From NCBI GenBank assembly GCA_003647605.1, contig QMND01000001.1, forward strand, positions 1 through 19,522: a DNA stretch of 19,522 nucleotides, written 5' to 3'. A program made the translations under genes and the position numbers. The stretch is from Candidatus Shapirobacteria bacterium. Lineage in GTDB: Bacteria; Patescibacteriota; Microgenomatia; UBA12405. Each line of letters starts with the position of its first letter. The first letter of the stretch is position 1. The notes under the pieces are model-generated. The model searched no databases and was not told the DNA's origin. It worked only from the letters and a program-made list of their open reading frames with translations. Below, in pieces: positions 3,162 through 19,522 of the stretch.

Positions 3162-3166
3162 TCATA

Positions 3167-4813: not shown

Positions 4814-4822
4814 ACATTTTTA

Positions 4823-4828
4823 CCTCCT
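4823..4828 (-). promoter_or_regulatory. Strong Shine-Dalgarno of the intron endonuclease
   Basis: AGGAGG lies nine nt before the ATG at 4813. It is the clearest Shine-Dalgarno sequence in the window and contrasts with the leaderless layout of the chromosomal genes. An SD is needed here because the message is embedded in rRNA precursor or intron RNA. Confidence 0.8.
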
Positions 4829-6900
4829 CGGTAGTATGACATACTTAGTCTTTCCAGCATATAGCTAAATTTTACAACTGCTCCAAAGGTGTTGAACAGT
4901 TAGAGTTACTGCTGACGTTCACCAGGGCTTCAATCGCAAGCATTTCGACAAGTCGAAACACCCGTTCATTTAACCTTCTGGCACCGGTCAGGCTTCAGCC
5001 CCTATACTTCCCCTTACGGGTTTGCAGAGACCTGTGTTTTTGATAAACAGTCGCCGTGCACTCTTTTGTTGTATCCCGGATCTTATCCCAGGAAGGGCAT
5101 CTTGCAAAGCTTACGCCCAGATATTTTGCCTAGTTCCTTAACCATCTTTCTCCCAATCGCCTTGGTCTACTCGACCTACCTACCAGTGTCGGTTTTAGTA
5201 CGAATTCTTATTATTCTATTTGCGACGCTTTTCCTGGACACATAGACTTGCTTCAATCGCCCGATTTTCATCAAGCTTTCATTCATGTCTCGCCTTAAAA
5301 CGAAAAGGCGGATTTTCCAACCTCTTCTAACTTAACATTTAGACAACCAATCACATAGTTGCTGAAATTTCCATATGCCGTCACGCCCCAACTTAAAACG
5401 AATAATAAAAAGGACCGGAATATTAACCGGTTATCCATCCACTACCCCACCACTACAGTGAGCTCATGTTAGGATCGCCTAACCCTCAGTCGAACAACGT
5501 AGCTGAGGAAACCTTAGGTATTCGGCGTAGCGAATTCTCATCGCTATTACGTTACTCATGCCTGCATTCTCACTTCTGACAGCTCCAGCCTGGTTTACAC
5601 CTTAACCTTCACCGCCATCAGAACGCTCTCCTACCGCTTTGACATAAAGTCAAAACCTCCATCTTCGGTATTTTGTTTTAGCCTCCTTACATTTTCGGCG
5701 CAATCTACCAAACTCGTCAAGACGAGTCGATCAGTGAGCTATTACGCTTTCTTTAAAAGATGGCTGCTTCTAAGCCAACTTCCTGACTGTCTTAGGTAAA
5801 TCACTTCCTTTCCCACTTAACAAAAATTTAGAGACCTTAGATGAGAGTCTGGGGTCTTTCCCTTTCGCCCAACCAGCTTAGCCCGGCTGGACTGACTGCC
5901 TAGCTATAAAAAAACGGTATTCGGAGTTTGGTTAAATACCAGAGATTGCTCCCTAAATATTCATCCAGTAGCTCTACCCCCATTTTTCAACACTAGACGC
6001 TATACCTAAATATATTTCGGAGAGAACCAGCTATTTCCGGTTTCGATTAGCATATTACCTCTAACCACAGGTCATCCAATAGATTTGCAGCTCTAACTGG
6101 TGCGGGCCTCCCCTTGTCTTTCGACAAGGTTCACCCTGCCCATGGTTAGCTCAACCGGTTTCGGGTCATCTCTAATCATCTAGCGCCTTATTCAGACTCG
6201 CTTTCGCTATGCCTTCGCTCGTTTGACGAGCTTAAACTCGATAATTAAAAATACTCGCAGGCTCATTCTTCAATAGGCACGCCATTACCTCGATAAATCG
6301 GGGCTTTGGCTGCTTGTTAGCAAATGGTTTCAGATCTATTTCACTCCCATACTATGGGTATTTTTCACCTTTCCCTTACGGTACTAGTTCACTATCGGTC
6401 CGCTAGAGTATTTAGTCTTGGAGGTTGGTCCCCCCAGATTCCCACGGCATTTCGCGTGTCCCGTGGTACTCAGGAATACAGTCCAGACATTACTCAATTT
6501 CGAATACGGGGCTTTCACCCTCTTTGGCTATCTATTCCACAACATTCTCCTATATTTCATGCCTTTTTATTCTATATCCTACAACCCTCCGACAAGTCGG
6601 AGTTTGGACTAATCCGTTTTCGCTCACCGCTACTCACGGAATCTCCTTTGATAACCTAAGTTACCAAAGCCTGCTTATGCAGGTTTCGATTTATTTTCTT
6701 CCGAGTACTAAGATGTTTCAGTTCCTCGGCTTACCCAGCATGCTACATAAGCAACATGCTCCAATTGCATTACTACAATCGAGGTTTCCCTATTCGGACA
6801 TCGCTGGATCACAGTTTGTTGACAACTCCCCAACGCATTTCGCCGTCTTCCGCGTCCTTCTTCGGCTCTAGCGACCAAGGCATCCACCATTTGCTTCTTT

Positions 6901-6942
6901 AAAACTTTTTTGTTTTTAGCAACTCAATTTGATTGCCAAAAA
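6901..6942 (-). other. 23S precursor stem, 5' arm
   Basis: 5' partner of 3167-3211; together they close the 23S precursor loop. It lies at the end of the roughly 140-nt spacer between tRNA-Ala and 23S (6911-7053), in which I see no other gene. Confidence 0.8.
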
Positions 6943-7053
6943 CACCCAAAAAATTTAATTACTTCAATTCAATAAATTGTTAAAGTGCAAATATACAATT
7001 TAGAAACATTTTTGCAAATGTTCCTATTCTTGCATATTTTTAAAGGTCTCCTG

Positions 7054-7127
7054 TGGACCTGGGGAGATTCGAACTCCCGACCTCCTCGTTGCAAACGAGG
7101 CGCTCTAACCAGCTAAGCCACAGGCCC
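7054..7127 (-). tRNA. tRNA-Ala(UGC)
   Basis: A full cloverleaf of 74 nt. The acceptor GGGCCTG/CAGGTCC has one G-U pair; the D arm contains AGCTGGTTAGAGC. The anticodon arm is CCTCG-TTTGCAA-CGAGG (8-nt segment including the closing base), giving anticodon TGC. The T arm is GGGAG-TTCGAAT-CTCCC. The discriminator base is A and the CCA tail is not encoded, so it must be added after transcription. It occupies the classic spacer-tRNA place before 23S, although no 16S precedes it. Confidence 0.96.
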
Positions 7128-7135
7128 TCGTTATC

Positions 7136-7158
7136 AAAAAACCCGCTACTCGCGGGTT
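7136..7158 (-). terminator. Terminator-like hairpin in the rRNA leader
   Basis: On the - strand AACCCGC-GAGTA-GCGGGTT is followed by six T, a textbook intrinsic terminator. It ends 8 nt before tRNA-Ala and lies downstream of the only good promoter seen. It may act as an attenuator that needs antitermination, or a weak -10 (GATAAC) after the T-run may start the operon. No boxA-like antitermination site was recognised. Confidence 0.7.
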
Positions 7159-7247
7159 AATTCGTTCCTTAGCAACTTCACTTAACTACCACAATCACCC
7201 ACCTTTAGTTTTATATATAAATTAAGCTCTAGCATCGCGAGTGTCAT

Positions 7248-7276
7248 ATTTTACCCAAACCCAAGCCAATCGTCAA
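7248..7276 (-). promoter_or_regulatory. Promoter of the tRNA-Ala/23S/5S operon
   Basis: TTGACG (7276-7271), a 17-nt spacer and TAAAAT (7253-7248) make the best sigma-70-type promoter in the window. It would give a leader of about 115 nt before tRNA-Ala. Confidence 0.7.
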
Positions 7277-7290
7277 TCACCAAAAAAACA

Positions 7291-7690
7291 ACTTGTCATT
7301 ATAAGGATTTTTATAAAAAATCCGTGATAATCCCGTCGAAACTAAACCTGCTTTTTTTAACTAATCAACCCATCCTTTACACCTCCCACGGGACAATAAT
7401 TTTTCTTTGTCTTATTTATTCCCAACCTTACAACAAAACTTGATACTCCGTCATTATGAGGATTTTTGTAAAAAAATCCGTGATAATCCCGTCGGACACT
7501 TACTCATGTTTTTTATTTAACTGTCTGCCTTTACATTCCCCACGGGATTGCCACGTCGTTACACTCCTCGCAATGACGATGTTTTTCTTTCTCTTATTTA
7601 TCCCCAACCTTACAACAAAACTTGATACTCCGTCATTATGAGGATTTTTATAAAAAAATCCGTGATAATCCCGTTGGAATTCAACTTACA
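7291..7690. repeat. Tandem array of composite palindromic repeats
   Basis: About 2.3 direct copies of a composite unit, starting at 7291, 7438 and 7619 (periods about 147 and 181). Each unit begins with an imperfect palindrome around GGATTTTT/AAAAATCC flanked by ATTAT/ATAAT. An AT-rich filler follows. Unit 2 then carries an oppositely oriented element (7538-7579; GTCATTGCGAGG...CGTGGCAATCCCG when read on the - strand), of which unit 1 keeps only the ends (about 7385-7394). The units close with TTACAACAAA. No gene is seen in 7159-7695; a short open frame there follows the repeat periodicity and is not credible. Confidence 0.85.
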
Positions 7691-7695
7691 CTTTT

Positions 7696-8736
7696 TTAAT
7701 TCTCTTCATTCTCAATATTGGACTTAACCATTTTTAATACTGACCTCAACAATTCATAATACTGCGGAACAACTCTATAATTATTTTTTCTTTCCCCAAG
7801 TGCCCCATTGTCACTTCCAAAATCTATAACTTGCCTAAGGTGCGAATTAGATTCCTTTGTCAAAAACTGAGAAATGCCACTCAAATACCTACCACATTGA
7901 CCGATATTCTCCCCCACACCCATTTTAAACAATTCAGACTTTATATCCTCTCGCTCAAACACTCTTTCTTCAGAAGAAATTATATCCAAAAACACAATTA
8001 GTCGTGGAGTAAGTCGAGTCTGTCTCTGTAATGTATTAATAAGCCTATCTCTCAATTCACCGTCAGGCAAATGGCTCTTTTCTAATGAAAACGAACTCCT
8101 ACCACTTCGTTTCGACTCTTTTTGTTTAGTCACTTTTTTTTGGATATAATCCTTCGCTTCTGGTAGAGGAATAATTAAGTCAGATGTAACAAATAATGAT
8201 TCATTTTCTGGATCAAGATGTGGTTTTAATTTTATGCATTCAATATCTATCTCATAGTCCCTAAGCCAAAGAACCGCAGAAATAACATCTGAACGAAACT
8301 CTCTAGAAACCAATATTATTCTCTGCTTTTTGTTTAACTCGTCAATTTCTTCAGCAATAAATTCTTCAATTTTTGATTTAGCTCCATATTCGTCTGTTTC
8401 CAAATATTCTGCATAATATTTAAAGATATCATCTGGCAAAAAATTAGAACAATAAGAAGTGTATTTTACTGCTTGCCACTCCACACCACTCCCAGAATCG
8501 TCTCTTTTTAATTCTATAATAACCAAATTAGCCTTTTTATCGACCGCCAACAAATCCAATCTTATTCCTGACGAAAGCCTAAGTTCTTTACCAATTATTA
8601 AAAGTTCCTCTCCTAGAATTTCCGGCGTCTTTTCAATCCACTCTTCAATATCATATCTCTCTTTGAGATTAAGTGTCTCGAATCGTGTTGAAGACAATCT
8701 GATTAACTTTTTACCGTTGATATCAACCTTATACAT
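7696..8736 (-). CDS. PD-(D/E)XK nuclease-like protein (NucS/DUF91-like N-terminal domain)
   Basis: A 346-residue cytoplasmic protein. The N-terminal half has a nuclease core: RLDLLAVD (D61), IIELKR (E75 and K77) and then WQAVKYTSY with Q88, which together match the PD-(D/E)XK pattern of NucS/DUF91-type proteins. The C-terminal half (about 225-340) is helical and unrecognised, possibly DNA-binding; a K/S/R-rich linker separates the halves. Whether it serves repair, restriction or defence is unknown. It stands alone between the repeat array and the GH18 gene. Its composition (more I, S, D, N and less V, G) differs from the neighbouring housekeeping proteins, hinting at acquisition. The ATG is the first in frame after a stop in the leader. 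Confidence 0.75.
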   Translation of the reverse strand: MYKVDINGKKLIRLSSTRFETLNLKERYDIEEWIEKTPEILGEELLIIGKELRLSSGIRLDLLAVDKKANLVIIELKRDDSGSGVEWQAVKYTSYCSNFLPDDIFKYYAEYLETDEYGAKSKIEEFIAEEIDELNKKQRIILVSREFRSDVISAVLWLRDYEIDIECIKLKPHLDPENESLFVTSDLIIPLPEAKDYIQKKVTKQKESKRSGRSSFSLEKSHLPDGELRDRLINTLQRQTRLTPRLIVFLDIISSEERVFEREDIKSELFKMGVGENIGQCGRYLSGISQFLTKESNSHLRQVIDFGSDNGALGERKNNYRVVPQYYELLRSVLKMVKSNIENEEN

Positions 8737-8797
8737 ATTAACACTTTTTGGGAGATAGCTAACATTTTAAAAAAACCGACCATCACCAACAACAAAC

Positions 8798-8806
8798 ATT
8801 ATAACA
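8798..8806 (-). promoter_or_regulatory. Extended -10 promoter of the nuclease-like gene
   Basis: TGTTATAAT on the - strand would give a leader of about 55 nt before the ATG at 8736. No Shine-Dalgarno sequence is seen in that leader, so this gene departs from the leaderless layout. Confidence 0.45.
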
Positions 8807-8867
8807 CCAACTTATTCACAAAAATTCCACTAGTACTTTTAAATTGCCCTGCTACATATTGCTTCAT

Positions 8868-8897
8868 AAAGATAATATAACATACCATATTATCTTT
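8868..8897. repeat. AT-rich perfect hairpin
   Basis: AAAGATAATAT and ATATTATCTTT are perfect 11-bp arms around an 8-nt loop. It lies between the end of the GH18 gene and the promoter of the nuclease-like gene. It might act as a weak terminator or operator; there is no strong T-run on the - strand. The rest of 8737-8989 shows nothing else. Confidence 0.5.
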
Positions 8898-8989
8898 TGT
8901 AATGTCCTTGTCAACAACTTAAATCATCTTCCACACACCCATCCAAAATACTACAGCAAATAAATTCGAACTAAACCTTACTAATCTTT

Positions 8990-10180
8990 TTATCTCAACA
9001 CCCTCTCCACCATCTTCCACACCTCCCCGCTTTCTCCTTCATAACCCAAAGCCCAAAAAGCCACCCCACCCCAATTCAAATCCTTAACCACCTGCACTTT
9101 TATTTCCAAACTATTCAAATCATCGTAATATATCTGTCTTATTTCCCCATCTCTCTTAAAAACCAACCACGGAGTCAACGACAACTCATCGAAACACAAC
9201 TTGGCTTCACCCTCCTTTAGCGGTCTGAAACCATCACAATCAACCTGTCTCAAATCATACAATTTATCCCTAAATTGTTTTAATTCCTTTTTAATTCGAC
9301 CATAACTAGCCATCTGCCACCATTTACCTTTAACTACCGCATTCATCTTTTCTCCTACTGTCTTCCATTCATAACCATATAAAGGATAAATCATTACCGT
9401 CTTTTTTTTATCAATTTTTAAATCAGAAATCTTGTTAAACACTTCCCATATATCCCTCTTACCCAAATCTGACTTAAGAGGAGCTACACTTCCAGTCCTA
9501 GTCGTCCCTGGTCGATGAAAATCGTAAGCCATAATCATCAACCAATCCAATTCGTTTATTAATCTCTCTAAGTCTTCTTTTTGTCCCCTAATCACCGTAT
9601 TACAAAAAACATCCAAACTAATTTCACCTACATCTAACTCTCTTAATTGTTTAACCAACGACAAAACTTCTCTCTCTAAAATCGCCATTGGATTACCTTG
9701 ATACTCAAAATCCAAATTAACTCCATCAAAATTACCATTACTTACCAACTCTTTTACTTCCGACAAAAACTTATTTTGATTTTTCTCACTACCAAAAAAA
9801 TTATTTAACTTATTATCGTCAAACAATTTAAGTCCCAAGATATTTTTTCCTCCTCTTTTTTTGATGTTTTTTTTCATCGACAAATATTTATCTGACCATA
9901 TTTTTTTTGATTGAAAATCCCATTTCAAACTACCATTTTCTTCAACTTCAACTCCCAAAAAAATCAAATCATCAATTCCTTTATCTATTTTTTTAACCTT
10001 ATTTATCATCCATGGTGGCAAAAAAGCAACCACTCTATAATTATTCTTTTTAATCAATCTACTCTGCCCCGACAAAGGATTCAAAATCTCCATCTCCTTA
10101 TCATCAATATAATCAACCACCGCCATCACTAAACCAATTATCAACAAAATCAAACCAACTAACCAAAACCTTTTTTTCAT
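8990..10180 (-). CDS. Membrane-anchored GH18-family glycoside hydrolase
   Basis: A 396-residue protein with an N-terminal membrane anchor or signal (about 5-23) and an extracytoplasmic TIM-barrel of the GH18 chitinase / YaaH-like family. The catalytic motif reads FDGVNLDFEY (about 151-160) with the acid-base E near 159. An N replaces one D of the DxxDxDxE pattern, as in many YaaH-type members. Later barrel strands are typical: LMIMAYDF and GGVAFWALGYEGE. It probably cleaves a beta-1,4-linked amino-sugar polymer such as peptidoglycan or chitin; the substrate is not determinable. I choose the ATG at 10180 over the adjacent GTG because TATGAT ends exactly 6 nt before it. The start is only 19 nt behind tRNA-Ile. 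Confidence 0.88.
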   Translation of the reverse strand: MKKRFWLVGLILLIIGLVMAVVDYIDDKEMEILNPLSGQSRLIKKNNYRVVAFLPPWMINKVKKIDKGIDDLIFLGVEVEENGSLKWDFQSKKIWSDKYLSMKKNIKKRGGKNILGLKLFDDNKLNNFFGSEKNQNKFLSEVKELVSNGNFDGVNLDFEYQGNPMAILEREVLSLVKQLRELDVGEISLDVFCNTVIRGQKEDLERLINELDWLMIMAYDFHRPGTTRTGSVAPLKSDLGKRDIWEVFNKISDLKIDKKKTVMIYPLYGYEWKTVGEKMNAVVKGKWWQMASYGRIKKELKQFRDKLYDLRQVDCDGFRPLKEGEAKLCFDELSLTPWLVFKRDGEIRQIYYDDLNSLEIKVQVVKDLNWGGVAFWALGYEGESGEVWKMVERVLR

Positions 10181-10186
10181 CACCTC

Positions 10187-10195
10187 ATCATAACA
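10187..10195 (-). promoter_or_regulatory. GH18 gene extended -10 box, leaderless layout
   Basis: TGTTATGAT followed by GAGGTG and ATG. It sits just outside the tRNA-Ile 3' end, so any -35 contact would fall within the tRNA gene. GAGGTG abuts the ATG too closely to act as a Shine-Dalgarno sequence. Confidence 0.5.
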
Positions 10196-10199
10196 TCTG

Positions 10200-10273
10200 T
10201 GGGTGATAATGGACTCGAACCATTGACCCCAGTCTTATCAGGACTGTGCTCTAACCAACTGAGCTAATCACCC
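10200..10273 (-). tRNA. tRNA-Ile(GAU)
   Basis: A 74-nt cloverleaf: acceptor GGGTGAT/ATCACCC, D arm with AGCTCAGTTGGTTAGAGC, anticodon arm CAGTC-CTGATAA-GACTG with anticodon GAT, and T arm ATGG-TTCGAGT-CCAT. The discriminator is A and no CCA is encoded. It is separate from the rRNA operon, where tRNA-Ile often sits in other bacteria, and there is no terminator between it and the GH18 gene. Confidence 0.96.
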
Positions 10274-10283
10274 AATAATAACG

Positions 10284-10289
10284 AGTATA
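10284..10289 (-). promoter_or_regulatory. Probable tRNA-Ile -10 box
   Basis: TATACT lies ten nt before the mature tRNA 5' end, a plausible distance for a short 5' leader. No clear -35 box is seen. Confidence 0.4.
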
Positions 10290-10321
10290 ACACATTTTTA
10301 ATTCTTAAAACCCACACTAAA

Positions 10322-11689
10322 CTAATACAACTGTTCTTGTTTTTCGTCCAAAGACCTCACCAACCAAGTCGTATCCAAACCATTCACTTGACAACTCCCA
10401 TCTAAATCTTCCGCCAAATATCCACCTTCTTCTACACTTTTATAAGCAGAAGTCGCTTCTTTTACCGCTTTAAAATCAACTCCATTTACAAAACCATCAG
10501 CCCCAATCACCATCTTTCCATCCACAATCGAGACAACATCTCCTGGCAAAACCGGACTCTCCGAAAAATCAAAAATTAAATTATCGTCTAAAATTAACTC
10601 CCCTTCTGCTTTCCCGTAGAAACCAGCCTGTTCGTCTATTCCAAACTTACTTTGCAGATGCTTTGGGCCTTTTACAAATATCGCCACATTCTTTCTAGGG
10701 CTAAAATCTTCTTTTTTAACATTTATCTCCACCTCATACAAATTTTCTCCTTTTGAATTTAAAAACTCAGTCCTATGAGCAATTACTCCCTCATAGCTTT
10801 TTATTTCCCCACCGCCCATTAAAATTACTTTAACCGGCCAATCCACTGCGCATTTAGAACTCGCTCTTACTCCCTTAAATGCGATAACAAAAGCCACCTT
10901 TACATCACCAACCGCAGATATTGGAATATCTGTTGGTTCTACCGTTGGTTCTACTGTTGGTTCCACTGTTGGCTCAGGTGTTTCACAAGGCAAACATATT
11001 CCCTGGCTACAACCACAAGAACAAGCGGTCGTTCGCACCACCCACTTACCTTGCTCACACATCTTAGAAAAATCTCCATTGCAAGCCATTTCTCCATTTT
11101 TACATTCCACAGAATCAACCTTAACTTTATAAACTGTTTTTTTTGCACTCGAGATATTTAAACTTTGATCACTTTTTCCCGGATTATAACCACTAACCTG
11201 ATTATCATAAGTAGAATCCAACAACACTTCAGACTCTCCACTGTCTATAGCTTCAAATTTCAACTTAAACAAAGAAACGATACCTTTAGCCATTTTAGTG
11301 CCATCTGTTTCCATTGAAATCCCAGCCAAACTAAAAAGACCAGCTGTATTGTCAATTTTTTTAACCAAAATATCAGATTCCGATTTAAATAGAGCCGTTA
11401 CCCCCCCACTACTCAAAACAGGGTTAACTTCCACCAATTTTAACACTTTAGAATTATATTTAACTCTCAAATCAACCGCTGACAATTTTTCACCCTTACT
11501 ATCCAACATTAAAGTGGAAATTAAAAAATCTCCTTTTTTGACCGTTTTTTTATCTGGTAAAAATAAAGCCTCTATTGAGGCATAATGAGCACTCTTTCTG
11601 GTTTCCTGACTCTTTTTAACCAATACAACGGCCCCAACCAAAGCCCCCACCAACACAAAAATCCCCAAAATCTTCAATATTAACTTCAC
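10322..11689 (-). CDS. Secreted cohesin- and dockerin-type modular surface protein
   Basis: A 455-residue exported protein with an N-terminal membrane segment (5-24). In order it has: a cohesin-like beta domain (about 36-190); a cysteine-rich stretch (eight Cys, 196-235); a TPEPTVEPTVEPTVEPTD linker (237-254) encoded by 12-nt tandem repeats; an unrecognised domain (260-380); and a C-terminal dockerin-like pair of calcium loops (ADGFVNGVDF near 397-406 and EDLDGSCQVNGLDTTWL near 427-443). Cohesin and dockerin modules bind each other, so the protein could assemble or anchor extracellular complexes. It starts at GTG 12 nt after the preceding ATP-grasp gene and closes the five-gene operon, which makes it a possible substrate of those enzymes (inference). 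Confidence 0.8.
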   Translation of the reverse strand: MKLILKILGIFVLVGALVGAVVLVKKSQETRKSAHYASIEALFLPDKKTVKKGDFLISTLMLDSKGEKLSAVDLRVKYNSKVLKLVEVNPVLSSGGVTALFKSESDILVKKIDNTAGLFSLAGISMETDGTKMAKGIVSLFKLKFEAIDSGESEVLLDSTYDNQVSGYNPGKSDQSLNISSAKKTVYKVKVDSVECKNGEMACNGDFSKMCEQGKWVVRTTACSCGCSQGICLPCETPEPTVEPTVEPTVEPTDIPISAVGDVKVAFVIAFKGVRASSKCAVDWPVKVILMGGGEIKSYEGVIAHRTEFLNSKGENLYEVEINVKKEDFSPRKNVAIFVKGPKHLQSKFGIDEQAGFYGKAEGELILDDNLIFDFSESPVLPGDVVSIVDGKMVIGADGFVNGVDFKAVKEATSAYKSVEEGGYLAEDLDGSCQVNGLDTTWLVRSLDEKQEQLY

Positions 11690-11701
11690 ATCTTAATTCA
11701 A

Positions 11702-12613
11702 TCAGTTTTTAATCAACATTTCAACTACCACTTTGGCCACATTTATTTTCGTCGCCTTTTCAAAACCCTTAAACTGGCAAGCCCTATTTACTTCCAAAAC
11801 ATACAATTCTCCTTTTTCATCTCTCATCAAATCCACTCCCACATAATCCAAACCTGCCACCCTGGCCGTTTCTTCCGCCAAATCTTTCTCTTTCTCTGAC
11901 AAATTCCACAGTTCTATATCTCCACCCAAACTAAAATTACTTCTAAACTCTTTCCCTTTAGCTATTCGCTTCATCGCCCCCACCACCTGACCATCAATCA
12001 CAACTATTCTCACATCCCAATGATTTTTCAAATCCTTTTGCCACATATACAAACCCAACACTTTCTCATCCTTCCTCTCTAACCAATCTTCCACCTCTTT
12101 TTCATTCCTTAATTTAAACACTGTCTTACCCTGATAACCCATTGAATTCTTAACAATCATTGGCCAGCCCAAGTTTTCCCCCATTTTATCTAAATTTATT
12201 AACACATCCTTCTTTTGATAAAAAACCCAACTCGGCACCACCGAAATACCTTCTTTAACAAACAGGTTATGTTGGCTAATTTTCCCCATTCTTGGCCACT
12301 GTAAATAAGACTTACTATTAACACATCTCACCCCCATCAATCCCAACTGTTCAATCATTACATTCCTAGCTATCACATATTTTCCACTAATTGTCCCTGC
12401 CACTCTAAACCAAACCCCAAAAGTATTCTCCTGATTTAACTCTTTATCTTCCAACTTAACCACCACCCTCCCTCCACTAAAAACAAAACTCAAATCCTTA
12501 TACAAAGCCCTTTTTGCCTCAATTCCCATTTTCTTCGCTTCTTCCACCACTCGTCCCACCTCGTAACTGCTTTGTGACTGAGATAAAGTAAAAATTACTA
12601 TTCTTTTTTTCAT
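11702..12613 (-). CDS. RimK-like ATP-grasp ligase (paralogue 2)
   Basis: A 303-residue cytoplasmic ATP-grasp enzyme of the RimK/amidoligase type, which forms amide bonds by way of an acyl phosphate. Visible motifs: nucleotide-loop region MIVKNSMGYQGKTVF (152-166), DVRIVVI (200-206), RSNFSLGG (224-231), GVDL (259-262) and the metal-binding LEVNRACQF (273-281). The acceptor and donor substrates are not known. Its ATG overlaps the preceding gene's stop codon (ATGA), suggesting translational coupling. It is clearly related to the next gene upstream: both share (R)xN(F/Y)SxGG and EVNxxxQFxGF-type endings. They look like an old duplication that may have specialised or may form a heteromer. Confidence 0.88.
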   Translation of the reverse strand: MKKRIVIFTLSQSQSSYEVGRVVEEAKKMGIEAKRALYKDLSFVFSGGRVVVKLEDKELNQENTFGVWFRVAGTISGKYVIARNVMIEQLGLMGVRCVNSKSYLQWPRMGKISQHNLFVKEGISVVPSWVFYQKKDVLINLDKMGENLGWPMIVKNSMGYQGKTVFKLRNEKEVEDWLERKDEKVLGLYMWQKDLKNHWDVRIVVIDGQVVGAMKRIAKGKEFRSNFSLGGDIELWNLSEKEKDLAEETARVAGLDYVGVDLMRDEKGELYVLEVNRACQFKGFEKATKINVAKVVVEMLIKN

Positions 12614-13542
12614 TTCTCCCCCAACCTAACTAAAAACTTAACCATCTCTTTTGGCACATCTATACCCGTCGCCTTCATAAAGCCACTAAACTGCGGTCCT
12701 TTATTCACTTCCCAAACTACTGGTTTTCTTATATCACCATCTCTAAAAACTACATCTACTCCTGCCACCAACAAAGAACAAACCTTACTAGCTTTAATGG
12801 CTAATTTTTTAATTTCCTCAGGTAAATCAGCCACCTCAACTTCTCCTCCAGCCGAATAATTATTTCTAAATTCACCTTCCTTTTGCCTGCTTCTTTTCAT
12901 CACTCCTAACACCTTATCACCCAAAACAATAATCCGATAATCCCCATCGTTTTCTATATATTCTTCAGCCATAAATCTTTTACCTTCCTTAATCTCCATC
13001 CACCTCAACTCTTTAACCAAATTATCCAATTCTAATTGATTATCAACTTTAAAAACCCGACTGCCCCTATCTCCTCCACTCCCTTTTATGACTAGAGGAA
13101 AGTCAAAATAATTATGAGCATATTTTTTTAAAAACATCAAACTGCCATAAATAGTTCTAGGAACTTCAATACCAGCTCCTTTCAAAGCCAACATTTGGTA
13201 GGCCTTGCAAGCTCTAGAAGATTTCCCCATCTCTACCAAAGGATCAACCACCACCACCTCTTTATCTCTATAAGTCCTCAACAACAAATCAACTTCTTCC
13301 CAATGTTTACCTGTAGTCCTAAAAAATAAAACATCATAAATATCCGCCCGCATCCAACCTTTTTTACTTTTTAAACCTCTTCTGATCATCACTTGACCAT
13401 TCTGACTGTCAAAAACAATCCTATTATAAGAGACCAAATCCAAGTCTACTCCAAACTCTTTCCCAGCCTTTTTTATCAATCTCAAATGCTTAGTTATTCT
13501 ACCCCCAAACAAAATCGCAATTTTAATTTTTTTGTTTTCCAT
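12610..13542 (-). CDS. RimK-like ATP-grasp ligase (paralogue 1)
   Basis: A 310-residue ATP-grasp protein of the RimK/amidoligase type. Motifs: LVIKGSGGDRGSRVF (150-164), DYRIIVL (201-207), RNNYSAGG (226-233), GVDVVF (261-266) and WEVNKGPQFSGF (277-288). It begins 6 nt after the fused ligase-protease gene and overlaps the following ATP-grasp gene by 4 nt, so all three ligases are made from one message. It probably adds an amino acid or short peptide to a peptide, protein or small-molecule carboxylate; the substrate is not evident. No signal peptide is seen, so it acts in the cytoplasm. Confidence 0.88.
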   Translation of the reverse strand: MENKKIKIAILFGGRITKHLRLIKKAGKEFGVDLDLVSYNRIVFDSQNGQVMIRRGLKSKKGWMRADIYDVLFFRTTGKHWEEVDLLLRTYRDKEVVVVDPLVEMGKSSRACKAYQMLALKGAGIEVPRTIYGSLMFLKKYAHNYFDFPLVIKGSGGDRGSRVFKVDNQLELDNLVKELRWMEIKEGKRFMAEEYIENDGDYRIIVLGDKVLGVMKRSRQKEGEFRNNYSAGGEVEVADLPEEIKKLAIKASKVCSLLVAGVDVVFRDGDIRKPVVWEVNKGPQFSGFMKATGIDVPKEMVKFLVRLGEK

Positions 13543-13548
13543 TTTATT

Positions 13549-14880
13549 TCAATCTTTAATCGCTTTAACCAAAAAACCCTTTAAATCCTTTCTTCCCAAC
13601 AAAAACTTAGTCCTAAGTTTACTTCTATTAGCCACATTAACCGCCGTCTTTATCAACCTGCCTTTCAACCAAAAAGTTAAAGCAATCACAGGCCTGTCAT
13701 TGTGTTTGCCCAAAGAAGATCGATAATGTCGATAATATAACACATTTTTCTCCCCCAACAAACCCAACTGTCTAGCCAAATCTTCATCAATCGAACTCCT
13801 AAAGGCACCAGTATCTACTTTAGCCCTCAATTCTACCCTGTTTTTCCTTCCCTTACCTGTCTTTATTTTAACTCTTTCTAAAGCCTCCAAAACTCTGTTT
13901 CTTTTTTTATCCTTAGCCTCCACCTTTTCAAAAAAACTTTCGGCAAACAAATACTTGGCTAACTTCACTCCATGTCTCACATTTCTCACCTCAATTCCCT
14001 CAACTCTTCTCAACCTCAACCCCAAACCAGCCCTATTACACAATTGAATTGACAAACCAGGTCTAGCATTTACCTCCAACACCATCGGTCCTTTATCTTT
14101 ATCCAATAAAATATCAATTCCCATAAAACCCAAACTAGAAATAGCCATTTGACATTCAATAGCCGTCTTTAGTATTTCTTCCCATTCTGGCACTCTAATT
14201 CCATTTACCTTAATTTTCTTCTTTTTTCTATAATCATAAATTTTACGAATCATTTCTTTTTTTCCTTTAACTCCAAAAGTCGTAATACCCGTTGCCAAAT
14301 CTATTCCCAAACCAACAGCCCCTTGTTGTAAATTCGACTTACCCCCTGATTCGGCTGTCGGCACTCTCAGCATAGCCATAACTGGTACATTATTGTAAAC
14401 AATCACCCTAACATCAGGTGTTCCTGTTTTGGTTAAACACAAAAATTTAGGATGTATTTTAATTCTCTCCTCCACTAAAACCGTATCTCTCATTCCATGC
14501 AAACTATACCTACCTTCCAAAATCTCCCTACAATGTAATCGTAAATCAGCTACATTCACAATTTCCCCATCCATTTTTCTCCATTCTCCTGCCCATTTAG
14601 CTCTTTTTCTAACCACCACAATTCCTTCACCACCATAGCCGGAAGCTGGCTTCACCACAAAATTTCCCTCTAATTCTTCCCACTTAAAATCAGTCACTTG
14701 TTTGTAATTTTTAAACCTTCTAATTAAAGAAGGTACCCCCACTCCCGCCTCAGCTAAAATTTTTTTAGTTTTCCATTTTTTATCAGCAATCGCCCTACCC
14801 CTAGCGCTGTTCTTTTTCAAATAGACCTTATTCCTCTCGTTTTTAGTTAAAAACCTCCTGTATTGCTTCAAATTGATCAT
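13549..14880 (-). CDS. Alpha-L-glutamate ligase-like ATP-grasp fused to a RimB-type retropepsin
   Basis: A 443-residue two-domain protein. Residues 1-300 match the alpha-L-glutamate ligase-like ATP-grasp family: KPASGYGGEGIVVV (77-90), DVRVIVYNNVPVMAM (156-170), SNLQQGAVGLGIDLATG (182-198), GIDILL and LEVNARPGLSIQL (268-280). Residues 340-443 are a RimB/DUF785-like retropepsin fold with VDTGAF (355-360) and LLGRKDL (427-433), formerly called ATP-dependent zinc protease. In other bacteria these are usually separate neighbouring genes; here they are one polypeptide. The ATG comes 2 nt after the 7TM gene's stop codon. The fusion suggests tag addition and trimming on the same target (inference). 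Confidence 0.9.
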   Translation of the reverse strand: MINLKQYRRFLTKNERNKVYLKKNSARGRAIADKKWKTKKILAEAGVGVPSLIRRFKNYKQVTDFKWEELEGNFVVKPASGYGGEGIVVVRKRAKWAGEWRKMDGEIVNVADLRLHCREILEGRYSLHGMRDTVLVEERIKIHPKFLCLTKTGTPDVRVIVYNNVPVMAMLRVPTAESGGKSNLQQGAVGLGIDLATGITTFGVKGKKEMIRKIYDYRKKKKIKVNGIRVPEWEEILKTAIECQMAISSLGFMGIDILLDKDKGPMVLEVNARPGLSIQLCNRAGLGLRLRRVEGIEVRNVRHGVKLAKYLFAESFFEKVEAKDKKRNRVLEALERVKIKTGKGRKNRVELRAKVDTGAFRSSIDEDLARQLGLLGEKNVLYYRHYRSSLGKHNDRPVIALTFWLKGRLIKTAVNVANRSKLRTKFLLGRKDLKGFLVKAIKD

Positions 14881-14882
14881 GT

Positions 14883-15740
14883 CTAACGAATTGCTTTTTT
14901 AAATCGCTCAATCTCCGTCAATCTAATTCCTTTGTAATTCCCTACCCAAAAATTGAGTACCAGTACCAACACAAACAAAACTTCAGGGTATAACAATGAC
15001 CATTCCTGAACCAACCTAATATCCATCACAATGGCTCCAAAAATCGACAAAACCAAAGTCCCAAAAGTTAATTTCTTAGCCTCTTTTCTACTTTTAGCCA
15101 ACTGAGTTCTAACAAAGTCTTCCGCCAGCATAATCATCATTAAAACTGGAAAAATAGAAATTTGACTAATGTTAAACCAACCCAAAAAGGAGGACATAGC
15201 CATCAAAAAAAAAGTCCCTACTGAAATTAACAATAAGTTCATTGACCTAGCTGGCCAAAAGTGCAATCTTAATCTCTTGGTCAACCATCGACTAACCAAA
15301 GAAATCAACAAAATACTGGCAAATAACAACAAACCTCCACCTATACCTGTATTTAAAAAAGTCACCGCCACCATAGTTGGGGTAAAAATACCATAACCCC
15401 TCAAACCCAAAACATAATGTAAAAATGAAACTAAGGTTGCCACCACCGGCAACAATAATAATAGTACTATTGTATTGGTTGACACCCCTCTAGCTACTGC
15501 CAATCTAATTAATTTTCTCATTGTGTTCAAACCGTTCCATTTGCCCACCTCTTGTTGATCCAACAATCGTTCCAACTCAAACACCAAAGTCTTGTCTCCA
15601 GTTTTCTCCAACTTGTCCATCTCAACAACCTTATTTTCTTCCACTGGAATTACCACCTCGTCTACTATAGCCATTGCTTTTTCTTTAGTCCACAAAAAAG
15701 CAACTAATCCCATTATCACCACCAAAAAAAAATTTTTCAT
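14883..15740 (-). CDS. 7TM protein of the UUP1 / 7TM-transglutaminase family, transglutaminase domain missing
   Basis: A 285-residue membrane protein. It has a signal peptide (1-24), a short extracytoplasmic stretch (25-88), then about seven membrane helices (roughly 90-112, 116-131, 133-151, 168-188, 193-206, 225-240 and 250-267). The region LRGYGIFTPTMVAVTF (113-128) and the following helices resemble the 7TM part of the inactive-transglutaminase/7TM family. Homologues known from proteobacteria carry a large inactive transglutaminase domain before the 7TM unit; here only about 65 residues remain. It heads the operon and is separated by 2 nt from the ligase-protease gene, its usual partner. 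It probably anchors the system and exposes or exports its target. Confidence 0.8.
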   Translation of the reverse strand: MKNFFLVVIMGLVAFLWTKEKAMAIVDEVVIPVEENKVVEMDKLEKTGDKTLVFELERLLDQQEVGKWNGLNTMRKLIRLAVARGVSTNTIVLLLLLPVVATLVSFLHYVLGLRGYGIFTPTMVAVTFLNTGIGGGLLLFASILLISLVSRWLTKRLRLHFWPARSMNLLLISVGTFFLMAMSSFLGWFNISQISIFPVLMMIMLAEDFVRTQLAKSRKEAKKLTFGTLVLSIFGAIVMDIRLVQEWSLLYPEVLFVLVLVLNFWVGNYKGIRLTEIERFKKAIR

Positions 15741-15746
15741 ACCCCT

Positions 15747-15755
15747 ATTTTACCA
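15747..15755 (-). promoter_or_regulatory. Extended -10 promoter of the 7TM/ATP-grasp operon
   Basis: TGGTAAAAT followed by AGGGGT and the ATG at 15740: again a 6-nt gap, predicting a leaderless first gene. It faces away from the pilin operon promoter at 15848-15856. Confidence 0.55.
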
Positions 15756-15847
15756 TAGCCCCATTTAAACCAAGCACAAACCCTGTCAATAACTGATTGT
15801 TCATCCCATCGGAAGCAAACCAATGCTTTTAACCAACTTAACCATTC

Positions 15848-15856
15848 TGTTATAAT
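15848..15856 (+). promoter_or_regulatory. Extended -10 promoter of the small-membrane-protein operon
   Basis: TGTTATAAT, then TAATT, then the ATG at 15862. The 5-nt gap predicts a leaderless transcript. A weak TTTAAC lies at -35 spacing. Confidence 0.6.
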
Positions 15857-15861
15857 TAATT

Positions 15862-16212
15862 ATGTTCAAAAATATATTGACTTCTCCCGTTCTTGCCCAA
15901 GTCAATATAGGTTCTGATACCCCCTTGGGAACAGGATCTTTGGGTTCAAAATATCCCAACTTCGCTTCTCTTCTTAATATTCTAGTCAAAAACTCCATCA
16001 CTGTTATCAGTGTCATTTTAGTCGTCCTCCTAATTGTCGGTGGACTTATATACATCATCAGTGCTGGTAGTCAAGATCAAAAAAACACCGAAAAAGGTTT
16101 AAAAATAGTTCAAAGCGCTGTCACTGGTTTTGTTGTTGTTTTCTTAAGTTATGTTATAGTTCAAATAGTTCAAGTCATAACTGGTTTAGAAATTCTAAAT
16201 CCAACCATATAA
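15862..16212 (+). CDS. TrbC/VirB2-like small membrane protein 1
   Basis: A 116-residue protein with a short N-terminal leader ending near VLAQ, a G/S-rich extracytoplasmic stretch (about 15-40), then two membrane helices (about 45-66 and 84-106) joined by a short charged loop (SAGSQDQKNTEKGLK). Two helices around a short polar loop is the pilin-type TrbC/VirB2 layout common in Patescibacteria. It is the most divergent of the first five copies in the loop motif. It may be a pilus subunit or secretion-channel component; the window holds no VirB4/VirD4-type ATPase to confirm this. It opens an operon with the next three genes. Confidence 0.75.
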   Translation: MFKNILTSPVLAQVNIGSDTPLGTGSLGSKYPNFASLLNILVKNSITVISVILVVLLIVGGLIYIISAGSQDQKNTEKGLKIVQSAVTGFVVVFLSYVIVQIVQVITGLEILNPTI

Positions 16213-16218
16213 ACACTA

Positions 16219-16584
16219 ATGAAACTAAAAAAACATAAAAAATTCATCTTAGCTGGTATATTTGGTAGCATCAAAGCCCCCCAAGGAATAGATAAATACA
16301 TCGGCACCGCCGGCAACAAAGGTAACGCCCTTTTTCTTTTCATGAATAACATATTTAAATTAATTGGAGTTGTAGCTGGCATTTTTACTATTTTCCAATT
16401 TCTTATGGCTGGCTTCGCCTACATCAGTGCTAGTGGCGAACCCAAAAAAATCGAATTAGCTTGGGCCAAAATTTGGCAAGCTATCATTGGTCTAGTAATT
16501 GTTGCCAGTGCTTTTGTCATTGCTGGAGTCATTGGTCGTCTTACCCAAATAGATGTTTTAAACCCTGAAATTTATGGTCCATAA
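16219..16584 (+). CDS. TrbC/VirB2-like small membrane protein 2
   Basis: A 121-residue paralogue with a basic N terminus (MKLKKHKKF), two membrane helices (about 43-69 and 86-108) and a loop reading YISASGEPKKIELAWAK, followed by the AIIGL start of helix 2. It begins 6 nt after the preceding stop codon. A TATAAA five nt before its ATG imitates the leaderless layout and could be an internal start, but it overlaps the upstream stop codon and may be chance. The N terminus lacks a clean cleavage site, unlike copies 4 and 6. Confidence 0.75.
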   Translation: MKLKKHKKFILAGIFGSIKAPQGIDKYIGTAGNKGNALFLFMNNIFKLIGVVAGIFTIFQFLMAGFAYISASGEPKKIELAWAKIWQAIIGLVIVASAFVIAGVIGRLTQIDVLNPEIYGP

Positions 16585-16924
16585 AATACTCGCCTATAAA
16601 CTTGAAGGTATAGGTATACAACCAGGAGATACTCCAGTTGAACAAACACAAAATCTAGAAAAAATTATTAGCCAAATTATTGGGGTTTTGTCTGTGGTTG
16701 CCGTTATTTGGTTTATTTTTCAAGTCATCTTTGCTGGCTACGCCTACATGTCTTCTCAAGGCGACAAAACTAAACTGGAAACTGCCCGCAAAAGACTAAC
16801 CCAAGGCATACTGGGATTAGTTATATCATTGATAGCCATTTTCATTGGTGCTCTAATTGCCAAACTAGCCGGATTTAAAAATATTTTTGATTTAAACAGA
16901 CAATTTAACCAAATGGGCCTATGA
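16574..16924 (+). CDS. TrbC/VirB2-like small membrane protein 3
   Basis: A 116-residue paralogue overlapping the previous gene by 11 nt. It has two membrane helices (about 35-57 and 76-98) with the loop YMSSQGDKTKLETARKRL and then GILGLV, the best form of the shared motif. No classical signal peptide is visible, so insertion would rely on helix 1. The overlap implies translational coupling, and the next gene follows with a 4-nt ATGA overlap. Confidence 0.75.
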   Translation: MVHKILAYKLEGIGIQPGDTPVEQTQNLEKIISQIIGVLSVVAVIWFIFQVIFAGYAYMSSQGDKTKLETARKRLTQGILGLVISLIAIFIGALIAKLAGFKNIFDLNRQFNQMGL

Positions 16925-17340
16925 TAAACATTAAAAACAAACTTACCACCATCCTAAATTCTTTTTTTATATTTATAATTTTCTATTTCTCATTCACCAA
17001 TCCCGTATCAGCTCAAATTACTAATCCGTTACTACCTAAAGCTAAACAAAATATCAATCACCCTACCATCTTCTTAAACAGATTTTTAAAAATGGCTATT
17101 GGTATATTTTTTATGGTTGGTATTCTCTACTTCCTCTGGCATCTCGCCATGGGCGCCTATCATCTAATTGCCACCCAAGGTGACAAAAACAAATTCCAAA
17201 CCGCCAAAGACGAGTTAACCCACGCTTTTGTTGGTTTAACAATCCTTTTTTCACTTTTCGCCATTCTAAAATTAATCGGTATTGTTTTTGGTATAAATAG
17301 TCTTAGTGAAAACCTAAAATTATCATTACCTTCACTTTAA
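16921..17340 (+). CDS. TrbC/VirB2-like small membrane protein 4
   Basis: A 139-residue paralogue with a clear signal peptide (about 1-32, ending PVSAQ), an extracytoplasmic segment, helix 1 (about 58-82), the loop LIATQGDKNKFQTAKDEL and helix 2 (about 92-115). It overlaps the preceding stop codon as ATGA and is the last gene of the tightly packed group; 79 nt separate it from copy 5. Signal-peptide processing fits a pilin-like or envelope-channel role. Confidence 0.75.
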   Translation: MINIKNKLTTILNSFFIFIIFYFSFTNPVSAQITNPLLPKAKQNINHPTIFLNRFLKMAIGIFFMVGILYFLWHLAMGAYHLIATQGDKNKFQTAKDELTHAFVGLTILFSLFAILKLIGIVFGINSLSENLKLSLPSL

Positions 17341-17374
17341 TATCTACCTATTGCTAAACAAAGGCATTTTCTAT

Positions 17375-17380
17375 TATAAT
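17375..17380 (+). promoter_or_regulatory. Possible -10 box before small membrane protein 5
   Basis: TATAAT lies 39 nt before the ATG at 17420 and would give a short AT-rich leader without a Shine-Dalgarno sequence. A second TATAAA at 17412-17417 is too close to the ATG for a leaderless start. Weak evidence. Confidence 0.35.
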
Positions 17381-17419
17381 TAATCATCAAATTACAAATT
17401 TACAGATTTTTTATAAAAA

Positions 17420-17791
17420 ATGAATAAACTAATCCAAAAAAATAAATTACTGGCTTTCGCTACTCCCATTTTTGCTCAAGACATTAACTTCCACGCCGGC
17501 GAAGATTTCGAACAACTAGAAAACCTAACTGTTGGGGGAATGGTTTCGGGTGGAATTAGTCTAATTATGTTGATTGTTGCCTTAGTGTTCTTCTTTATGT
17601 TAGTTTGGGGAGGACTAAGATGGGTCATGTCGCAAGGAGACAAGACTAATGTAGAAAATGCCCGCAATCAAATCACTAATGCTCTTATTGGTCTAGCTAT
17701 TGTCTTTGCCGCTTGGGCCATTATGAAACTCATTGGCACACTTTTTGGTGTTCAAATTTTAGACGGATTAAGTATTCCAACTTTCAATTAA
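17420..17791 (+). CDS. TrbC/VirB2-like small membrane protein 5
   Basis: A 123-residue paralogue: short leader ending PIFAQ (about residue 20), an acidic extracytoplasmic segment, helix 1 (about 43-67), the loop WVMSQGDKTNVENARNQI, then NALIGLA opening helix 2 (about 87-110). The SQGDKT core is shared with copy 3. An intrinsic terminator 20 nt after its stop codon ends this transcript, so copy 6 is a separate unit. Possibly a major pilin-like subunit with its own expression level (inference). Confidence 0.78.
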   Translation: MNKLIQKNKLLAFATPIFAQDINFHAGEDFEQLENLTVGGMVSGGISLIMLIVALVFFFMLVWGGLRWVMSQGDKTNVENARNQITNALIGLAIVFAAWAIMKLIGTLFGVQILDGLSIPTFN

Positions 17792-17810
17792 CAACAAATT
17801 TACCAATTCA

Positions 17811-17840
17811 CACCCCGACTTATGTCGGGGTGTTTTGTTT
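17811..17840 (+). terminator. Intrinsic terminator after small membrane protein 5
   Basis: CACCCCGAC-TTAT-GTCGGGGTG, a perfect 9-bp stem with a 4-nt loop, is followed by TTTTGTTT. It separates copies 5 and 6. Confidence 0.9.
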
Positions 17841-17850
17841 ATCTCTTCTT

Positions 17851-17859
17851 TGTTATAAT
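17851..17859 (+). promoter_or_regulatory. Extended -10 promoter of small membrane protein 6
   Basis: TGTTATAAT, then TTTCT, then the ATG at 17865: a 5-nt gap, leaderless layout, placed just after a terminator. Confidence 0.6.
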
Positions 17860-17864
17860 TTTCT

Positions 17865-18263
17865 ATGCTAAAACTTTTAATCTTTTTTTTCTTCACCTTT
17901 TTTCTCCTAGCTCACCCCTATCAACAAATATACGCCCAAACCCCTAAAAAATGGACTGGTCGTTGTGTCGCCACTTTCGACAATGAAGTCGCCACTATTC
18001 AAGGTTTAGAATGTCTGTTTTATAATATCCTCCAAATTATTGTTTTTATAGCTGGAATTTCCTTCTTTATTATGTTTGTAATTAACGGATTCCGTTATAT
18101 TTTTTCCAGTTCTGATCAAAAACAACTTGCCAATATACAATCTGCCTTAACTATGTCTATTTTTGGAGTTATCGGCATTATCGGATCATGGCTAATCCTC
18201 CGTCTTATAGAAAACATAACTGGGCTCAATGTCACCCAATTTAAAATCCCTGGTCCAAATTAA
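17865..18263 (+). CDS. TrbC/VirB2-like small membrane protein 6
   Basis: A 132-residue divergent member. It has a signal peptide (about 1-25, ending YAQ), an extracytoplasmic segment with two cysteines (in GRCVATF and GLECLFYN), helix 1 (about 56-78), the loop YIFSSSDQKQLANIQSAL and helix 2 (about 93-115). The glycine of the SQGDK motif is replaced by S. The cysteine pair is unique within the array and could form a disulfide outside the cell. It has its own promoter and ends 12 nt from the convergent ATPase gene, with no terminator seen between them. Confidence 0.75.
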   Translation: MLKLLIFFFFTFFLLAHPYQQIYAQTPKKWTGRCVATFDNEVATIQGLECLFYNILQIIVFIAGISFFIMFVINGFRYIFSSSDQKQLANIQSALTMSIFGVIGIIGSWLILRLIENITGLNVTQFKIPGPN

Positions 18264-18275
18264 TACCATCTTTTC

Positions 18276-19445
18276 TTAACCAAAAAAATTTTCCGAGTTG
18301 ATTACTATTTTTTTTGCATCTGGATACCTATTCTTAAAAGCCAAACTAAAATTACCTTTTTTAAACTTAATTTCCACTCCTATTAAAGTTTTATAGTTAC
18401 TCAAAATCAAATCCACCTCTGAACCAGACTTAGTTCTCCAATAATTAGCTTTCAAATTTGAACCACTATATCCCAATTCTTTTTTAACCTCAGAAATAAT
18501 AAAATTTCCAAACATCGCCCCTCTATCTTGTCTTAAATTGATATTATCAAAATTTTCTATTAATCCATTTCTCAAACCCAAATCCCAAAAATATATTTTA
18601 GGCGATTTGCCAATTTCGTCTCTTTTGTTTTTACTAAAAGGAAACAATCTGTATAACAAAAAACTCTGTTCAAATATGTCAATATATCTTTGGACTGTTG
18701 GTATAGACAAACTAATTTTTCTTGAAATCTCAGCATAATTAATCACATTACCTATCTGATAAGCCAAAACCTTCAACAGTTCCAACGCCTTTGACCTATT
18801 ATCTATCAAATCTAACTCAATAATATCTTTAAAAATTACCTTTTGAGCTAAATTTTTTAAATAATCTTCCTTGTTTTTAGATTGGACAATTTCCGGATAC
18901 AACCCATACCTCAACACCTCAGCCACCAAATTATCTATCGAATACAATTTAAAAGTCAGTTGATCGTCCAATCTTAAAATTTTATCTAAAACCGACACCA
19001 GCTTAGTTTCTTTTTCTATTCCCAACTGAAACAACATTTCACCCCAAGTCAAAGGATATAAAAAATAATCAAAAGCCCTACCTGCCATGCTTTCAGCTGT
19101 TTTATTTTTTATTCGCAAAGACGACGAACCTATTATGATAATTTGAATACCCTGAAGCTGATCATAAATAATCTTAACCGCTCGACCAGGGTTCTCAATC
19201 AAATGAATTTCATCTATCAATATTTGTTGGTAATTTCCAATCATTTTCCTATAATTATCAGAACTATATGTCTCCAAACTATCAATCGTCGACTTCTCGT
19301 CTACTAACAAATACAAAGCATCAGGAAACAACTTTTTTAACAAAGTGGTTTTTCCCACTTGTCTAGCCCCCAATAAAACAACTATTTGTTTATTGACTTT
19401 AAAATGTTCTTTAATTTTCTCCTCTAAAATTCTGTATTTATTCAC
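18276..19445 (-). CDS. AAA ATPase with C-terminal DUF4143
   Basis: A protein of about 389 residues of the AAA_14/DUF4143 family: Walker A GARQVGKTT (about 26-34), Walker B ILIDEIH (about 75-81), sensor region IIIIGSSSLR, a winged-helix middle part (SIPTVQRYIDIFEQSFLLYRLF) and a C-terminal restriction-enzyme-like fold remnant (GSEVDLIL...GVEIKF). Family members are widespread in Bacteria and Archaea, often in variable regions, and their function is not settled. A TTG at 19451 is in frame, but it touches the -10 box TATAAT and cannot be transcribed from it. The GTG at 19445 lies 6 nt after the box and is chosen. I-rich and V/G-poor composition hints at acquisition. Confidence 0.88.
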   Translation of the reverse strand: MNKYRILEEKIKEHFKVNKQIVVLLGARQVGKTTLLKKLFPDALYLLVDEKSTIDSLETYSSDNYRKMIGNYQQILIDEIHLIENPGRAVKIIYDQLQGIQIIIIGSSSLRIKNKTAESMAGRAFDYFLYPLTWGEMLFQLGIEKETKLVSVLDKILRLDDQLTFKLYSIDNLVAEVLRYGLYPEIVQSKNKEDYLKNLAQKVIFKDIIELDLIDNRSKALELLKVLAYQIGNVINYAEISRKISLSIPTVQRYIDIFEQSFLLYRLFPFSKNKRDEIGKSPKIYFWDLGLRNGLIENFDNINLRQDRGAMFGNFIISEVKKELGYSGSNLKANYWRTKSGSEVDLILSNYKTLIGVEIKFKKGNFSLAFKNRYPDAKKIVINSENFFG

Positions 19446-19451
19446 AGTCAA

Positions 19452-19481
19452 ATTATAGCACCACTTTTACAAAAGTATCAA
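19452..19481 (-). promoter_or_regulatory. Promoter of the AAA/DUF4143 gene
   Basis: TTGATA (19481-19476), an 18-nt spacer and TATAAT (19457-19452) with an extended TGC before it. This is a strong promoter, and the GTG start follows after 6 nt. The spacer contains the palindrome ACTTTT-AC-AAAAGT. Confidence 0.75.
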
Positions 19482-19506
19482 CTTTTATAAAGTTAACTTT
19501 ATAAAA
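19463..19506. promoter_or_regulatory. Overlapping palindromes in the ATPase promoter, probable operator
   Basis: TTTTATAAAGTT and AACTTTATAAAA form a perfect 24-bp palindrome (19483-19506). A related palindrome ACTTTTACAAAAGT (19463-19476) sits in the promoter spacer. Two or three similar half-sites around -35 suggest binding of a dimeric regulator; which one is unknown. Confidence 0.55.
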
Positions 19507-19522
19507 ATATAAACCATTATAA

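Follow-up and report, generated by a model that had tools for sequence, protein, structure and literature searches.

Why should a bacterium carry, next to the gene of a seven-transmembrane (7TM) protein, a gene that joins an amino-acid ligase domain and a protease domain in one polypeptide? The question is raised by positions 1-19,522 (forward strand) of contig QMND01000001.1 from a Candidatus Shapirobacteria bacterium (assembly GCA_003647605.1). This stretch of 19,522 nucleotides, called the window below, equals one entire contig, and the genome (G000) comprises 0.95 Mb in 195 contigs with 84% completeness. Five minus-strand genes of the window encode the 7TM protein, the ligase-protease fusion, two further ligases and an exported protein with a cohesin domain. 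The first two are a conserved unit that recurs through the Patescibacteria. The encoded enzymes probably attach short chains of amino acids to some molecule and remove them again. Judging from sequence comparison, it is fairly likely that the module is a membrane-coupled writer-eraser of short acidic amino-acid tails in this phylum, whose eraser can be swapped.

The 7TM protein and the ligase-retropepsin fusion

A point of reference is the rlo operon of Pseudomonas aeruginosa, which encodes the retropepsin RloA, the inactive-transglutaminase 7TM protein RloB and the ATP-grasp protein RloC (mBio 2025, PMC12239564; this and the other papers are cited from excerpts). In the window, the 7TM protein (gene 1, 14883..15740, minus strand, 285 amino acids (aa)) matches PF14402 (7TM_transglut) with 93.0 bits, and only 2 nucleotides separate its gene from that of the fusion (gene 2, 13549..14880, minus strand, 443 aa; Pfam ATPgrasp_ST and Zn_protease). 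The fusion consists of an ATP-grasp domain (residues 16-294, 13999..14835; PF14397, E 2.3e-58) and a RimB/RloA-type retropepsin domain (about residues 330-439, 13564..13893; PF05618, 35.3 bits, cut-off 27), the latter with an intact Asp-Thr-Gly motif (D356-T357-G358, 13807..13815). Against TIGR02291, which we assume to cover RloC, the protein proves homologous (E 4.1e-77), with a score of 259.3 bits that stays below the curated cut-off of 314.2. No hydrophobic segment or signal peptide was found in the fusion, and thus both the ligase and the protease activity would be cytoplasmic. Besides D356, its retropepsin keeps K354, R396 and R419, positions that map to the poly-Glu channel of RloA; the mapping was made here by motif and spacing, with the residue roles taken from PMC12239564.

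The 7TM protein is less complete. The RloB model covers it only at model positions 312-505 of 508, the C-terminal part, with 64.9 bits against a cut-off of 900, and a Pfam/NCBIfam search detects no transglutaminase domain in its 285 aa. The original prediction had placed the locus with the known 7TM-transglutaminase/ATP-grasp/retropepsin module; this stands for a variant with extra ligases, but the transglutaminase part is missing. The predicted 7TM structure is confident (predicted local distance difference test, pLDDT, 87.6), and the structure matches of the modelled fold are too weak for assigning a role. Near its C-terminus the 7TM protein has a conserved G-x-R...RF stretch. In several lineages (L174, L193, L237, L143 and L150) the 7TM genes encode about 500-550 aa, with a big N-terminal extension at the place of the transglutaminase of RloB; Pfam finds a PKD domain in the extension of L150, L174 and L193 and none in that of L237.

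How general is this pair? Among 95 sampled relatives, the fusion query matches 56, and the 7TM query matches the identical 56. In the loci fetched, the 7TM gene lies directly upstream of the fusion, except at a partial second fusion copy on a short contig of G066 (L073). In a wider sample of 379 Patescibacteria genomes, 158 genomes match the fusion profile at E 0.001, 113 of them strongly (E < 1e-30). PF14402 is present in 109 of the 379, and all 109 fall among the 113; of the four others, three have a 7TM protein by our own profile (L188, L233, L236) and one is a fragment. The anchored loci were then pooled (231, of which 221 are distinct, with 217 full loci scored for the retropepsin motif). 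In 210 of the 221, the gene just upstream of the fusion is a 7TM gene in the same orientation (median gap 2 nucleotides), and 9 of 11 tested conserved ATP-grasp positions are invariant across 217/217. A scan of named genomes gave at least 572 stretches encoding a relative of the fusion. In the best 80, which were inspected, all titles that name a group give Shapiro-, Woese-, Collier-, Moran-, Kaiser-, Kerfeld-, Dojka-, Portnoybacteria and others, which we take to be Patescibacteria. Among the matches listed, the four named relatives closest by the fusion protein comprise three Candidatus Shapirobacteria and one Patescibacteria record without further placement.

Two other forms were met in these searches. 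Weak matches confined to the retropepsin part come from open reading frames (ORFs) of about 135-175 aa (G307, G378, G391, G411, G354 and others) and probably represent RimB-like proteins standing alone in Patescibacteria that lack the fusion. At L223 (3218-5782) and L224 the fusion is prolonged by a region matching our own profile of a second ATP-grasp type; Pfam gives no call on this region in L223.

Two more ligases follow the pair in the window (gene 3, 12610..13542, 310 aa; gene 4, 11702..12613, 303 aa; both minus strand). With 144.6 and 151.2 bits, both narrowly pass the TIGR00768 cut-off of 143.4, and models of MptN, CofF and cyanophycin synthetase match below their cut-offs. By these matches genes 3 and 4 would be RimK-type ligases, with glutamate addition as the predicted activity. 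Are they part of the module? In the window's family, 28/28 loci have one or more RimK-type genes behind the fusion and 23/28 have both, and of the five loci with a single one at least two run to the contig end. In the pooled 221 loci, one or more RimK-type genes occur in 108, two or more in 73 and three or more in 19, while a further ATP-grasp gene of either type is found downstream of the fusion in 122. The proposed link of these ligases to the module is therefore supported. The ORF coordinates also agree with the five genes, their order and their spacing as first described, with successive gaps of 2, 6, -4 and 12 nucleotides. The single promoter proposed for all five found no support, since a promoter scan yields no more sites than shuffled sequences.

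MATCAP and the retropepsin in related loci

Is the retropepsin the only candidate eraser? A metallopeptidase of the MATCAP type (PF08014) accompanies the ligase in 54 of the 221 loci, either within one protein or encoded after it. It is fused at the C-terminus of the ligase-retropepsin in 35, of which L193 is an example, with the retropepsin region still recognised in 22 of these 35, and it is unfused in 19 further loci, within five same-strand genes downstream. Four fused examples score 204.6, 204.9, 177.4 and 149.9 bits against PF08014 (cut-off 27), and Pfam does not call a retropepsin in these four. The metal-binding motifs HExxTH and EEGxA, searched with loosened patterns, are both present in 48 of the 54. 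The stand-alone MATCAP of locus L123 aligns over residues 4-319 to the solved KIAA0895L structure 7z5g, which we take to be human, with E 1.6e-39. PF08014 matches 5 of the 95 sampled relatives; it has no match in the window genome, an assembly 84% complete, nor in the 34 genomes of its family. The MATCAP association, seen in relatives, is new; the MATCAP-bearing arrangement was not found in the literature searched, a 2009 comparative amidoligase study lying outside that search.

The distribution of MATCAP follows the state of the retropepsin. Of the 217 full loci, 173 have an intact D-[TS]-G motif and 44 a broken one, and MATCAP accompanies 42 of the 44 broken retropepsins versus 12 of the 173 intact ones. 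A stricter count, of loci in which the Asp is lost, gives 29/217, 27 of them with MATCAP; among broken loci whose retropepsin region is still recognised, the figure is 29/31. As to the two exceptions, a frame break follows MATCAP-like residues at the end of the fused ORF in L252 (our own reading), and L104 has a MATCAP match elsewhere in its genome. All 11 tested ligase positions are retained in 44/44 loci of the broken set, and K354, R396 and R419 are kept in 7, 1 and 3 of these 44 versus 151, 165 and 155 of the 173 intact loci. This residue pattern looks like relaxed selection confined to the protease.

Phylogeny, to be sure, weighs against reading these counts as many separate replacements. 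A tree built from the ligase part requires 8 changes for the broken state and 13 for the presence of MATCAP; independent pairs number about 2 in the same direction, 0 in the opposite direction and 5 undecided (p 0.5); and the retropepsin losses are confined to two or three clades. The large clade has 37 tips, 29 broken with a fused MATCAP, 4 intact with a fused MATCAP, 3 intact without MATCAP and 1 broken without it. The second has 13 tips, 11 of them broken with an adjacent MATCAP, and the third is a poorly supported pair. Eight intact loci with an adjacent MATCAP are dispersed single lineages. Taken together, the sequence pattern suggests that the two unrelated cutting enzymes can substitute for each other.

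A proposed mechanism and its known relatives

What would such a module do? In the proposed mechanism, the ligase domain, aided by the two RimK-type ligases, would add amino acids, most likely glutamate, to the C-terminal or a side-chain carboxylate of a putative acceptor. The fused retropepsin would cut long chains back, so that a single cytoplasmic enzyme with two activities would set the chain length. As for the 7TM protein, it may bring this enzyme to the membrane or else carry a signal or the modified product across. Other lineages would have seen their retropepsin decay, with a fused or adjacent MATCAP metallocarboxypeptidase taking over the role of eraser.

Why acidic tails? The reading is preferred because both peptidase types have relatives that remove glutamate. 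The retropepsins RimB and RloA cleave polyglutamate (PMC11957791, PMC12239564), and TMCP1 and TMCP2 of the MATCAP family deglutamylate tubulin and take residues off its C-terminus (PMC10499314). Two unrelated peptidase types with glutamate-removing relatives, attached to one ligase and apparently interchanging, make the best argument here that an acidic chain would be built and then shortened. In Pseudomonas, deletion of rloB or rloC suppresses the loss of the RloA proteases (PMC12239564), as the writer-eraser model expects if the uncut product is harmful.

Among bacterial systems, the rlo operon shares with the window its three core families in a single operon and the conserved DTG. By our own mapping the Lys and Arg residues contacting poly-Glu are kept, with two Arg 23 residues apart in both. 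However, ligase and protease of the window are one protein without a signal peptide, while RloA is secreted; the 7TM protein of the window comes without a transglutaminase domain; and the window adds two RimK ligases. Moreover, 96% of RloB hits are Proteobacterial (PMC12239564), whereas the window module is Patescibacterial. The module would work like the rlo operon, but it is not classed as a member, because it has neither a transglutaminase domain nor a secreted protease and its ligase scores under the TIGR02291 cut-off. The other close parallel is the RimBK hybrid of Desulfotalea psychrophila, a protein that cuts poly-glutamylated S6 with its protease domain (J Biol Chem 2025, PMC11957791). 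It too carries a retropepsin and an ATP-grasp ligase on one polypeptide, but RimB is N-terminal there and the ligase is RimK, while in the window the ATP-grasp domain comes first and the retropepsin after. The excerpts of that source mention no 7TM protein for RimBK, and the window pair has one.

Is there a eukaryotic parallel? The TTLL ligases of the tubulin code have an ATP-grasp fold. In that code, as proposed for the loci described above, a writer is paired with a MATCAP eraser of glutamate chains (TTLL ligases and TMCP/MATCAP, PMC10499314). The differences are that the present system is bacterial, with no tubulin substrate known, and that its writer and eraser are fused or in one operon. 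The likeness also rests on relatives, the window's own 34-genome family being without a PF08014 match. A bolder reading is that tails are modified reversibly in Patescibacteria, much as in the tubulin code: ATP-grasp writers tied to a 7TM protein would be fused to erasers, and two unrelated protease folds, the aspartic retropepsin and the zinc MATCAP, would share the eraser role and replace one another; the MATCAP beside dead retropepsins, close to the animal tubulin carboxypeptidase, could then point to the evolutionary source of the eukaryotic enzyme. We put this forward tentatively, with more doubt than confidence.

Bacteria make and cut poly-glutamate tails through the rlo and rim systems, and the target of the membrane-linked version is regarded as an open question (discussion of PMC12239564, as excerpted). 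The present survey shows this membrane-linked version to be widespread in Patescibacteria, as the strong fusion matches in 113/379 genomes indicate, with writer and eraser on one polypeptide. The swap of retropepsin and MATCAP supports the eraser function by comparative genomics, and it predicts that both would cut the identical chain. The MATCAP family is known mainly from microtubule work, and the module offers a bacterial model of it.

Alternative readings and neighbouring genes

Could the same genes serve the cell wall? The ligases might put amino acids on a peptidoglycan or lipid-linked precursor, with the peptidases trimming them and the 7TM protein flipping or anchoring the product. A gene for a class A penicillin-binding protein (PBP; own profile, Pfam being run on one, that of L119) does follow in the same direction in 28 of the 221 loci, but this link is seen in certain lineages only and could reflect synteny inherited together with ruvC and yebC. 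Mutants of the P. aeruginosa rlo genes show defects of cell shape as well as ampicillin and osmotic defects (PMC12239564), and 13 of the fetched loci, that of the window among them, have a GH18 homologue nearby. On the other hand, the ligase and the retropepsin are both related to poly-glutamate enzymes, and no D-Ala ligase-type model reaches its cut-off among the families listed (the best 25 for two proteins). A cell-wall role is thus considered unlikely. Another possibility is that the enzymes make something small and soluble, for instance a cofactor with a poly-glutamate tail or a storage or secreted peptide, which the 7TM protein exports. RimK relatives make cofactor and peptide tails, in line with the sub-threshold matches to MptN, CofF and cyanophycin synthetase, and synthesis of free poly-alpha-glutamate by RimK is stimulated by RimB (PMC11957791). 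We judge this improbable: no cofactor pathway appears among the annotated neighbour clusters, where ORFs under 70 aa were uncalled and a precursor peptide could be missed, and a number of RimK-type ligases ranging from none to three or more would be odd for a single fixed product. Apart from these considerations, ruvC (and yebC) often lies upstream of the module in PBP-bearing loci, such as L119 and L174-L185.

The original prediction allowed that the module might tag the exported cohesin/dockerin protein encoded at its end, with the retropepsin trimming the tag. Cohesin-type ORFs are indeed enriched beside the module in the window family: 11/39 lie within about 10 kb of it (binomial p 1.4e-12 versus a uniform 10 kb in 800 kb), and some link to the module may therefore exist. 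Moreover, the window-type subfamily ends in an exact C-terminal Tyr in 26/26 proteins of the database set, an end that a C-terminal ligase could read. But the other 28/39, by hand count in 22 family genomes, lie away from the module, and such a neighbour occurs in only 14 of the 221 pooled loci. Cohesin-type homologues are present also in the family members G003, G007, G009, G015 and G031, where searches gave no 7TM, fusion or RimK-like match. The terminal Tyr (10325-10327 in the window) is found in 35/45 genome copies, including genomes without a module match, several of the other ten ending in acidic residues, and 10 of 18 further cohesin-type copies end in something other than Tyr. An exported protein would also need to meet cytoplasmic enzymes before secretion. 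The cohesin protein is thus a very unlikely substrate, and its standing as an integral part finds no support; its gene is probably a family-level add-on, an optional neighbour outside the core, and the Tyr end is possibly a C-terminal sorting or processing signal. From the gene neighbourhoods expected at first, the extra ATP-grasps do recur with the 7TM protein and the fusion, while the cohesin gene is mostly encoded elsewhere.

The cohesin-domain protein itself (gene 5, 10322..11689, minus strand, 455 aa) shows a hydrophobic N-terminus, the cohesin, a PT linker, a beta domain and a dockerin-like C-terminus. It reaches 16.2 bits against PF00963, below the gathering cut-off of 24.1, and a fold test finds the cohesin beta-sandwich at residues 37-190 (11120..11581). 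Dockerin type I (PF00404) is not called in it at E 0.1 and is called in 7/25 homologues; a few cohesin-type matches span only the Pro/Thr linker.

Among the other features of the window, a LAGLIDADG endonuclease ORF (4292-4813, minus strand; PF00961, E 2.2e-21) sits inside an enlarged 23S rRNA match (3201-6910), and thus a 23S rRNA intron is likely. Between tRNA-Ala and tRNA-Ile (7053-10273, minus strand) lie two genes for proteins, one NucS_C-like and one GH18, and no 16S rRNA is listed on the contig by the Rfam scan; the rRNA operon appears split. The GH18 glycosidase (8990-10183, minus strand) has a hydrophobic N-terminus and, given its homologues near the 13 loci, is perhaps a functional neighbour of the module. 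Divergent from the operon, at 15862-18263 on the plus strand, six consecutive small membrane proteins match T4SS_pilin (PF18895), four above the cut-off of 26.6 and two below, and most window-family loci have small divergent genes of comparable size upstream.

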